Below are positions 22,007 to 25,658 of a stretch of DNA of 29,975 nucleotides, piece by piece. The notes below the pieces were generated by a model, which did no database searches, was not told where the DNA came from, and saw only the letters and a list, made by a program, of their open reading frames with translations. Both the position numbers and the translations under genes were made by a program. Within the stretch, counting starts at the first letter, position 1. Each line of letters opens with the position of its first letter. Origin of the DNA: a virus; the IMG/VR virus record IMGVR_UViG_3300025769_000563, positions 1-29,975 of that record; one strand, 5' to 3'.

Positions 22007-22662
22007 ATATTATTAAGCATTGATTTTACATTATTATAAACATCTACTTGCGAATCTAATTTAGATTTATTACTCCATTTTTTTTCATTTTTAGCCCATC
22101 TACTAAGCCTTCTGCTAACATCAAAAGTTTTTTGCATTTCATATTTCATCTTATTTCCTGATCTATTACATTCAGTCCAATAATTAATAAAATCATTGCA
22201 CATCTCAGTTGTATAATTAGATGAATAAACAATCTCCTCAAACTCCTTTCTTCTAATAGATATATTTTTTATTATTTTTATTTGTTTATTCTTATTAGTA
22301 TCTATTTTTTTAACATCTTCTTTTTTATTTTTTTTAATACTAGATTTTAAAAAATTTAGAATCTTGGTATCAATTATTTTAAAATGTAAACTAGCAGGAA
22401 TGCCTTTTAACTTTGTTTTTATAAATCCTTTACTTTCTAAATTCTTTATAGCTATTGACTGCTGATGCCTACTTAACGTTGTATCTTTCTCTATATTTAT
22501 TGCAGTATTAAAAAACCATCCATCATCTAACATATTATTTTCTATAAAATATTGCTCTTTGCTTATAAGGTCGGCAAGTAGGATTGCCTCTTTTAGTCCT
22601 ACCTGCCTTGCTAACTTTTTATTAACTATTAAATATGCACTACTACTTAACAAATTTTTCAT
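22003..22662 (-). CDS. Replication initiator with N-terminal winged helix
   Basis: A 219-aa protein. The N-terminal part (AYLIVNKKLARQVGLKEAILLADLIS, then DDGWFFNTAINIEKDTTLSRHQQSIAIKNLESKGFI) is the winged helix of phage replication initiators/replisome organisers of Bacteroidota. The middle is a lysine-rich linker (about 108-135), and the C-terminal part (FINYWTECNRSGNKMKYEMQKTFDVSRRLSRWAKN) resembles the helicase-loading end of DnaD-like proteins. It should bind the phage origin and recruit host helicase; no helicase is encoded here. ATGA overlaps on both sides. AT-rich coding sequence of this gene is a possible origin. Confidence 0.75.
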   Translation of the reverse strand: MKNLLSSSAYLIVNKKLARQVGLKEAILLADLISKEQYFIENNMLDDGWFFNTAINIEKDTTLSRHQQSIAIKNLESKGFIKTKLKGIPASLHFKIIDTKILNFLKSSIKKNKKEDVKKIDTNKNKQIKIIKNISIRRKEFEEIVYSSNYTTEMCNDFINYWTECNRSGNKMKYEMQKTFDVSRRLSRWAKNEKKWSNKSKLDSQVDVYNNVKSMLNNI

Positions 22663-23210
22663 GTAGATATATATATTCTTATATTATAATTATCTAAAAC
22701 CTCATTACACTTATCATAAACATCTGAAAATTCAGTATAATTACAATTTACACTAGTTTTAAAATCATCTGTTATAATATTTATAGCAATATGAAAATCA
22801 TCTAAATTTTCTTTACCTACATTCTCAATCCCATTATCTTTTAAAAATCTTATTAATTCACTTTTTGATTTAAAATCTTTCTTATTTTCTTTGATTTTAC
22901 TATATATATTAAATATCTCATTATAGTAATTTCTATATTTAGGGTATGTAGCATAGTCTGATTTATGTTTATTTTCATAATGATATATGCTTGTTCTATC
23001 TTTATGTAAAACGTCTGCTATAACTTTATAATGAATCTTTAAATCTTTTCGAGCTATAACTGCAACAATAGTTCTAGGCACAGTATATTTTTCTGCCTTA
23101 GAACCTAAGTCTTTATTATATAAATCTCCCTCATTAAGTCCGCAAACTTTAGTTGCAATATCACACAAAGCCAAAACATCTCTCTCATCATTAATATTTT
23201 TAACTATCAT
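22659..23210 (-). CDS. DnaA domain-IV-like DNA-binding protein
   Basis: A 183-aa protein with a segment resembling the C-terminal DNA-binding domain of DnaA (about residues 44-82): VPRTIVAVIARKDLKIHYKVIADVLHKDRTSIYHYENKH, which in motif form gives 'R.i...ia......y..I...l..d.tsi.H'. No AAA+ domain is present. DnaA domain IV recognises DnaA boxes, so this protein may bind the phage origin or compete for host boxes. The C-terminal half is helical and acidic with no known domain. It overlaps the SSB-like gene by 11 bases and the initiator by four. Confidence 0.7.
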   Translation of the reverse strand: MIVKNINDERDVLALCDIATKVCGLNEGDLYNKDLGSKAEKYTVPRTIVAVIARKDLKIHYKVIADVLHKDRTSIYHYENKHKSDYATYPKYRNYYNEIFNIYSKIKENKKDFKSKSELIRFLKDNGIENVGKENLDDFHIAINIITDDFKTSVNCNYTEFSDVYDKCNEVLDNYNIRIYIST

Positions 23211-23793: not shown

Positions 23794-23855
23794 TTGTTAA
23801 TATATTTAATTTTGCCTACTCTAATAAGTTTTCGGCATCCCTTTTTATCTTTCAT
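23790..23855 (-). CDS. Possible 21-aa basic microprotein
   Basis: ATG at 23855, TGA at 23792-23790 overlapping the ATG of the SSB-like gene in ATGA. Product MKDKKGCRKLIRVGKIKYIN plus Lys: basic. It bridges the 51-base gap between the 76-aa gene and the SSB-like gene, and could merely couple translation between the two. Size makes it uncertain. Confidence 0.3.
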   Translation of the reverse strand: MKDKKGCRKLIRVGKIKYINK

Positions 23856-24277: not shown

Positions 24278-24685
24278 TTAATTATTTTTTTTGTTAGGCA
24301 TTAAAGTATTAAGTAATTCAGCACAAGCTAACATCCACTCATCCTCATTACTATCTACATTTTCAGGGTCTAGTATATTATGAGCACTAAGTTCCAAAAC
24401 CTCAGCCCTATTGTCTCCGACCTTTACATTAAAACATTTTTGCTTTCCATCTACAATAGCAAGTTTGTAAAACCATACAGAATCAACTCCTATATATTTT
24501 TTGTATAAAGGTAAATCGCTGAATTTAAGTTGATGATATGCAGATGTAAGTTTCTTAATATAAACTATATCATCTTTCTCATCCATAACATTTAACTCAT
24601 GTTGAACACGATCAGAAGTTTGCTTGTCCTTCTCTCTTAGTTCTTGAATCTCATCTTGTAATTCTAAAAATCTTTCGTTTGTCAT
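24278..24685 (-). CDS. First gene of the early operon, 135 aa, unknown
   Basis: A 135-aa acidic protein. The N-terminal helix (FLELQDEIQELREKDKQTSDRVQHEL) is coiled-coil-like; the middle (LTSAYHQLKFSDLPLYKKYI, then FYKLAIVDGKQKCFNV) is globular. No family is known. It is the first gene after the leader RNA, so it is probably expressed early and strongly, and proteins in this place often act on the host. Its leader contains nine A residues just before the start. Confidence 0.6.
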   Translation of the reverse strand: MTNERFLELQDEIQELREKDKQTSDRVQHELNVMDEKDDIVYIKKLTSAYHQLKFSDLPLYKKYIGVDSVWFYKLAIVDGKQKCFNVKVGDNRAEVLELSAHNILDPENVDSNEDEWMLACAELLNTLMPNKKNN

Positions 24686-24710: not shown

Positions 24711-24755
24711 TTATTTTAAGTAAAGATTAGAGGAGATACCTGCTATTCGTAACAT
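24711..24755 (-). CDS. Possible 14-aa leader peptide
   Basis: ATG at 24755-24753, TAA at 24713-24711; product MLRIAGISSNLYLK. It lies in the leader RNA: its start sits within the hairpin loop region, and its codons cover the 3' arm. An AGGAG stretch lies 12 bases before its ATG inside the 5' arm. Translation through it would open the hairpin. Chance occurrence in an AT-rich leader cannot be excluded. Confidence 0.25.
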   Translation of the reverse strand: MLRIAGISSNLYLK

Positions 24756-24783
24756 CTCAGTCTAAAACTCCTCTGCACTTTAC
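24720..24783 (-). ncRNA. Structured 5' leader hairpin of the early operon
   Basis: In the minus-strand transcript, GTAAAG (24783-24778) pairs with CTTTAC (24725-24720), and AGAGGAG (24774-24768) with CTCCTCT (24735-24729), separated by a 3x3 internal loop. Inside, GAGAT and ATCTC could form an alternative stem that uses part of the same bases, so two shapes are possible. The predicted transcription start lies at or within a few bases of 24783, so this hairpin would be the very 5' end of the RNA. It may protect the RNA, or regulate the downstream genes. Confidence 0.55.
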
Positions 24784-24788
24784 ATGGT

Positions 24789-24820
24789 CAAATATAATAA
24801 CTATAATTTTAACTCACAAA
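24789..24820 (-). promoter_or_regulatory. Bacteroidota-type promoter of the early operon
   Basis: Minus-strand TTTG at 24820-24817, 20 bases, then TATATTTG at 24796-24789, an exact match to TAnnTTTG with the Bacteroidota -33/-7 spacing (19-21). Start of transcription would fall near 24780-24784. It lies in the only sizeable non-coding gap before the replication genes. The -33 element overlaps one arm of an inverted repeat (CACAAA at 24815-24820 and TTTGTG at 24847-24852) that may be an operator. Confidence 0.75.
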
Positions 24821-24938: not shown

Positions 24939-25658
24939 TTATAAGTCCATTAATAGGTTGACTACATACCTTCCATTTTCTTTAACTACGGCACAACCAA
25001 TAGCAGGCTTTTTACCATACTTAGCATATGCCATTGCATAACTATCATGGTCAATGCCGCAACCGACTTGAGTAGCAAAAATTCTGTAATTTTGTCCAAC
25101 ATAATGCTCTGTATAGCATTGAGTATGTAAGTGCCCTTGCACAGTATTCATCATATCACTTTTAGCCTTAGTCCTAGCCGTTCCTCCCTCTCCATGAATA
25201 TATTGCACACCATCTTGCACATATCTTTCCATAAATTCCCATTGAGGCACTTCTAATACTTCTTTATATGATTTAATCCATTTACTAGGTATTGATGAGG
25301 TTTGAGCTTTACGCATTATAATGCGATCATGGTTTCCAATTATAACTCTAGCCTTAGGAAATGCAGCATACCATCTTGAAATCCTTTTGATTGCATATTC
25401 TAATTCATCTAAACCGCCCATCCCATCTGCTGAGGTCTCATGGTAGCTGCTAAAGTGGTTGTCAATTATATCGCCAATAAAAATAACATCTGTGCAATTA
25501 TGTAATTTATATTGTTCTACGCAAAAATCTAGGTATGAATCTAAACAAAAGGGCTCATGTAAATCTCCAATGACTAAGACGTTACGCTCCCCTTTGTTTC
25601 TGATTCTTTCTAATACTTTAATTTCAAATGGTTTTAACCGATAGCGGTTATTTCTCAT
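24939..25658 (-). CDS. Calcineurin-like metallophosphoesterase
   Basis: A 239-aa protein with all motifs of the superfamily: GDLHEP (31-36), GDIIDNH (62-68), GNHDR (108-112), HGEGG (155-159) and GHLHT (175-179). These hold two metal ions and the phosphate. Such phage proteins act as DNA or cyclic-nucleotide phosphodiesterases or as phosphatases; substrate cannot be told from sequence. It has no signal peptide. It lies after the lysis genes, at the end of the transcript that starts upstream with the portal, and is followed by the early promoter region. An inhibitor of host defence signalling is one speculative role. Confidence 0.85.
   Translation of the reverse strand: MRNNRYRLKPFEIKVLERIRNKGERNVLVIGDLHEPFCLDSYLDFCVEQYKLHNCTDVIFIGDIIDNHFSSYHETSADGMGGLDELEYAIKRISRWYAAFPKARVIIGNHDRIIMRKAQTSSIPSKWIKSYKEVLEVPQWEFMERYVQDGVQYIHGEGGTARTKAKSDMMNTVQGHLHTQCYTEHYVGQNYRIFATQVGCGIDHDSYAMAYAKYGKKPAIGCAVVKENGRYVVNLLMDL

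Follow-up and report, generated by a model that had tools for sequence, protein, structure and literature searches.

A 64-nt hairpin at the head of a predicted early transcript is a member of a hitherto uncatalogued family of structured elements that occurs in a few Bacteroidota phages, and this assignment is well supported. The hairpin lies at 24720..24783 on the minus strand of the window, the 29,975-nt stretch of viral DNA that was analyzed as a whole, and it occupies predicted positions +2 to +65 of the early transcript, as delimited by folding, by the models R1-R3 and by covariation. In total, the family comprises six elements with five distinct sequences in four genomic contexts, all from uncultured phages, and the members share the invariant core G[UUUUAGA]CYG-loop-CRG[GUAU]C within covarying stems of differing sequence. 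We consider it very likely that the family is real. With a probability of roughly 0.5, we favor a function as a recognition hairpin that acts in cis on phage transcripts and may serve in conditional termination or in antitermination. Little is known about how transcription is controlled in Bacteroidota phages, which are abundant. The element offers an exact recognition core, so that, with the known copies in hand, a few constructs would suffice to test its binding partner and its function.

The promoter ahead of the hairpin agrees with what the sequence-only reading had described. On the minus strand, TTTG at 24820-24817 is followed after exactly 20 nt by TATATTTG at 24796-24789, and TTTG-N20-TATATTTG matches the Bacteroidota primary promoter pattern (TTTG, about 19–21 nt, TANNTTTG = TAHHTTTG). 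The former is the putative -33 element (24817..24820), assigned by its sequence and the exact 20-nt spacing; the latter is the putative -7 element (24789..24796), assigned by its sequence, by the matrix of the relatives and by a published register (PMC6847099). The motif alone is not rare, with 2 occurrences in 30 kb compared with 1.34 expected in shuffles, so the evidence for the promoter is its position and the comparison with related phages. This comparison was anchored on 80 phage contigs carrying a 74–80% identical phosphoesterase, which in the window is the calcineurin-like product of the last gene before the promoter (24939..25658, minus strand; PF00149, phrog_221). A promoter of the same type was found directly 3' of the phosphoesterase gene in nearly all relatives whose contig extends far enough. 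Using a matrix from 42 non-redundant relatives, the window site was the top site on the transcribed strand, and three plus-strand sites scored higher. These sequence comparisons support a predicted early promoter in the window and a conserved position of it among the relatives.

In Flavobacterium johnsoniae, the register of the -7 element is T-12 A-11 T-8 T-7 T-6 G-5 (PMC6847099), and since the G of the element lies at -5, the +1 of the window transcript is predicted at 24784. The hairpin stem GTAAAG begins at 24783, which is the predicted +2. The claim that a start near 24783 adjoins the hairpin therefore holds as to the adjacency, and the start itself is placed at 24784 by this register. The first gene behind the hairpin element encodes 135 aa (24278..24685, minus strand) and has 27–37% identical relatives in L095, L012 and L021. 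Most relatives have an unstructured leader, and their first gene begins less than 50 nt from the -7 box. In the upstream region of the early promoter of relatives (e.g., L004, L024, L031), TTGTTAATAACTT and GTTAA motifs repeated at a distance of about 11–13 bp precede the -7 box; these are possible operator or activator sites.

The arms of the hairpin are as the sequence-only reading had given them, and the whole folds with -19.1 kcal/mol. In the lower stem, GTAAAG (24778..24783) pairs with CTTTAC (24720..24725); across the family, 4 of its 6 pairs show two-sided changes and 77.8% of the alignment cells are paired. In the upper stem, AGAGGAG (24768..24774) pairs with CTCCTCT (24729..24735), with two-sided changes in 6 of 7 pairs and 95.2% of the cells paired. 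The internal loop enclosed by these stems is invariant, its 5' side TTTTAGA (24761..24767) and its 3' side GTAT (24736..24739) being the same in 6/6 members. Beyond it lies the inner helix, in which CTG (24758..24760) pairs with CAG (24742-24740); it is paired in 100% of the cells, with a two-sided change in one pair, and is replaced by CCG/CGG in L241 and L248. The folding by itself is modest evidence (z of about -2.2 to -2.4 compared with shuffles), because about 2% of the 70-nt windows on the same strand fold equally well or better. It is the covariation with the relatives that makes the window hairpin secure.

Those relatives that are closest in gene content (L061, L095, L012 and L098) have no hairpin at this promoter, and the positional comparison, in which the promoter is kept and the hairpin is not, would alone have suggested a phage-specific or chance hairpin. 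The relatives of the element were found in other phages. R1, a covariance model made from the window hairpin alone, was applied to 0.82 Mb of DNA from related phages and gave one clear match (L086:6606-6678, 30.1 bits, E 3.7e-4), in which nearly all stem pairs are compensated. The L086 copy keeps GUUUUAGACUG and GCAGGUAUC and has different, pairing stems (AGGAAUG/CAUUCCU and AAACAA/UUGUUU). Scanning IMG/VR with TTTTAGACTG-N4-30-CAGGTATC returned nine stretches, including the L086 contig, L213 and L218 with complementary flanks; scanning with a variable inner helix returned 60 stretches and added L241 and L248, which have stems of 13–15 bp. R1 scored L241, L248, L213 and L210 at 30–33 bits and returned nothing at the tested decoy loci with a similar core. 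The weakest member is L218 (16.6 bits with R1, E 0.22), which has a 5-bp upper stem. R2, made from four members without L241 and L248, scored these two at about 1e-12, both of them having been fetched by the core pattern; the E-values are rough, and the viral scans, which relied on core patterns that were kept fixed, would miss any member whose core has changed. A covariance model from one phage hairpin can thus recover a family missed by catalogues.

In the six-sequence alignment, 89.6% of the cells pair compared with 71.1% in the shuffled alignments, and two-sided changes occur in 11 of 16 pairs compared with 5.4 in shuffles. The covariation score is 0.633, compared with 0.229 when shuffled (0/500) and at most 0.21 when slid. 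These values are to be read with two limits: the members after L086 were chosen partly for complementary flanks, so the stem covariation is inflated, and the independence of the sequences is limited to five distinct types, L213 and L241/L248 representing one locus. Genomic context is a criterion that was not used when picking members. By this criterion, the core matches with 5–15 bp stems and a full inner helix were intergenic in 6/6 cases, whereas the other core matches, with stems of at most 5 bp, were coding in 34/41 cases and intergenic in 7/41. All family copies lie on the coding strand, co-oriented with the genes, with one copy per searched record. Arms varying without compensation had been named beforehand as the result that would speak against the structure; the arms vary with compensation, which favors it. 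A chance hairpin, to which the folding z of only about -2.3 and the lack of a hairpin in the nearest relatives would point, has a negligible probability given the conserved core and the covarying stems in other phages.

The window copy is located directly behind the early promoter and ahead of the 135-aa gene. The L086 copy directly follows the stop codon of an ssb-like gene, with the next ATG 35 nt after the core. The L241 and L248 copies are situated 7–9 nt behind an 86-aa gene, the product of which carries an EDLPF tail like that of SSB, and a VirE-type primase gene follows them after about 190 nt; the L213 copy lies in this gap as well, 76 nt past the stop. The copies of these three phages therefore all lie between SSB-like and primase genes, near AT-rich repeats. 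The L218 copy is at the stop codon of the gene following an endolysin-like gene, and the early promoter lies about 75 nt further downstream; both this copy and that of the window are located at the late/early junction. In L086, L241 and L248, the element follows the stop codon within about 10 nt. On the coding strand, the flanks are A-rich on the 5' side and T-rich on the 3' side; the T-rich stretch behind the stem is clearest in L086, L241 and L248, weaker in L213 and L218, and poor in the window. MW202828.1, a relative of L241 (primase 67.5%), does not have the element, and its ssb-primase gap holds an ordinary terminator (GGGGAGG-GTGGTG-CCTCCCC-TTTTTT).

The sequence-only reading had proposed, in addition to the promoter and the structured leader, which are both supported here, that the leader is an attenuator or senses translation by means of two mutually exclusive pairings and a leader peptide. 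The alternative pairing GAGAT/ATCTC is possible, but when forced it yields -10.8 vs -17.9 kcal/mol, and being 7.1 kcal/mol worse it does not make the hairpin a balanced switch. The 14-codon ORF is also present (24711..24755, minus strand; ATG at 24755-24753, MLRIAGISSNLYLK, stop ending at 24711), but it is probably not a gene: its ATG lies inside the hairpin in a poor start context with G at -3, the ORF is not conserved in the other family members, and no ATG was found in their loops. The 135-aa ORF, in contrast, starts in A-rich, unpaired sequence with an A at both -3 and -6; in F. johnsoniae, an A at -3 has been identified as a positive determinant (PMC6847099). The U-tract of the window hairpin is poor, since the 8 nt that follow its upper stem contain only 4 T, and the terminator scan did not call this hairpin. 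Attenuation by a leader peptide, or translation sensing, would have the ORF and the weak alternative pairing to build on; the missing ORF in the other members, its poor start, the cost of the second pairing and the weak U-tract make this reading highly improbable, and we do not retain it.

The element probably acts as RNA. Its terminator-like placement behind genes elsewhere and its place at the early-transcript head here suggest conditional termination or antitermination, which we put forward tentatively. By such a mechanism, the window hairpin would make up the initial 64 nt of the early mRNA, and the other copies would lie in the transcripts of intergenic gaps, usually just behind a gene. 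The asymmetric internal loop (UUUUAGA / GUAU) might be read by a protein or by RNA polymerase, and the hairpin, which is terminator-like with an enlarged loop in most other copies, would govern whether transcription continues. The poor U-tract in the window and the L218 copy, which precedes the early promoter, speak against termination or antitermination. A wider proposal, which we regard as doubtful, is that the family constitutes a new class of nascent-RNA transcription regulators in Bacteroidota phages, in which the invariant loop of a terminator-like hairpin, read by RNA polymerase or a phage factor, decides between stop and run-on; if true, such a regulator would be used at the early-transcript head and between replication genes.

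A hairpin bound by protein could instead set mRNA stability or translation, blocking 5'-end-dependent decay in the window and 3' exonucleases elsewhere. The stem at the predicted +2 in the window and the location of other copies directly behind gene ends fit this reading, as does the effect described for hairpins at the 5' end of mRNAs, that of ompA for example; however, most relatives do without any leader hairpin, and simple end protection needs no invariant internal loop, so we consider it an unlikely though credible explanation. The copies between SSB-like and primase genes near AT-rich repeats (L213, L241 and L248), those at the late/early junction (the window and L218) and the single copy per record would also suit a DNA element, namely a hairpin on single-stranded DNA that serves, for example, as a priming or origin site for a primase or an initiator protein. 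No G-U pair was observed in the 42 cells of the upper stem, and such strict Watson-Crick pairing slightly favors DNA, with few sequences behind it. The exact abutment to the predicted start, the adjacency to stop codons and the asymmetry of A-rich 5' and T-rich 3' flanks nevertheless fit RNA better, and close relatives replicate without a copy, which leaves a DNA role rather improbable. The promoter directly in front of the window copy would suit a small trans-acting RNA or decoy, akin to the small regulatory RNA that the sequence-only reading had also named, as an abundant 64-nt hairpin binding a host or defence protein, and relatives carry other noncoding RNAs at the junction, some as promoter-RNA-terminator units. 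Yet the window hairpin has no terminator of its own, and the L086, L241 and L218 copies have no obvious promoter directly in front; we judge a trans-acting RNA improbable.

The put RNA of phage HK022 brings about protein-free antitermination via the zinc-binding domain of the RNA polymerase beta' subunit. The cis-acting recognition hairpin that we favor resembles the HK022 putL and putR RNAs in being a structured RNA of similar length (64 nt compared with about 70 nt), and the window copy lies shortly downstream of a predicted early promoter, in the way that putL closely follows an early phage promoter; the 5' end of putL is in a duplex (PMC9378689). The HK022 put RNA, however, consists of two stem-loops, whereas all members here form one long hairpin with an invariant internal loop; the L218 copy precedes an early promoter, and the other copies have no obvious adjoining promoter, unlike putL. 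The lambda nut site (boxA/boxB with N) is likewise a cis-acting RNA hairpin near the start of the early transcript or just behind an early gene, and the present element is similar to it in this respect. Lambda boxB, in contrast, is a 15-nt hairpin with a pentaloop and not a 64-nt hairpin with an internal loop, and we know of no protein of the lambda N type for this phage. These analogies suggest that the element resembles put or nut in manner and is a member of neither. It is like an intrinsic terminator in having a stem with A-rich 5' and U-rich 3' sides behind genes in L086, L241 and L248, and in that a plain terminator fills the same gap in MW202828.1, but it differs in the large loop module of invariant sequence and in the poor U-tract of the window copy.

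Searches in catalogues and in other genomes gave no further copies. An exact-stem DNA pattern had a single unrelated GC-rich match, and blastn searches of 50,697 phage records with the element of the window or of L086 gave no believable match. Against Rfam 15, the window region had no overlapping match with an E cutoff of 10, and L086, L213 and L218 had none with a cutoff of 1. About 1,000 Bacteroidota genomes yielded no signal above chance. For the genomes grouped around a Flavobacteriaceae MAG, the result was at chance level in 301 genomes of its family and in 396 genomes of its phylum, and in 398 genomes of its order the core pattern matched as often as a reversed control; the bacterial matches that were inspected lacked the core and were either terminators or chance folds. 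No copy was present in cultured relatives (an Elemovirus, Panino, P12024S and Larrie) or in further virus records, and the weak match in the Elemovirus is a plain terminator. No protein common to all carriers and missing from the non-carriers was found; the ssb-like gene (phrog_862) is present in three carriers and also in non-carriers such as L095 and L083. A stop-codon read-through element was rejected because the distance to the stop codon varies among the members. The resemblance of GUUUUAGA to the start of a Cas9 repeat would point to a CRISPR-repeat mimic, but this stretch is an internal loop here.

Other RNAs were observed in the window and in related phages. A DUF805b RNA (RF02914, 37.7 bits) is located at 23813-23845 on the minus strand of the window, between a 76-aa zinc-ribbon-like gene and the ssb-like gene. 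It is also a short Bacteroidota cis-element, but it differs from the leader hairpin in sequence and structure, and the hairpin has no match to RF02914. A second, different structured noncoding RNA occurs in related phages (L025:4375-4485, L079:1845-1960 and also L161; GATAAGGAATA..CTAACCTAACC..AAAGAAACGA); its outer stem is compensated, with 6 pairs changed on both sides between two sequences, and neither L025 nor L079 gave an Rfam match at the gathering threshold. Behind the phosphoesterase gene in L020, L033, L060, L079, L021, L053, L083/L084 and L092, there are long noncoding, partly structured leaders or promoter-RNA-terminator units, as if noncoding RNAs had a slot of their own at the late/early junction; the analysis did not support a fold shared by L020, L033, L060 and L079. 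A near-identical terminator and leader (GCTAGCAAAACATGCTAGCTTTTTTTTATAGCATAAAATAAATCCCTTTGCGACTACTATAGG) is present at L095:3142-3223 and L012:1220-1300, in L098 and partly in L047, and is followed by different early genes, as if it had been copied as a unit. The product of window 22659-23210 (minus strand) has no Pfam or PHROG match and resembles by eye the DnaA DNA-binding domain IV (HKDRTSIYHYENKH); proteins that look like it are present in L095 and L241.
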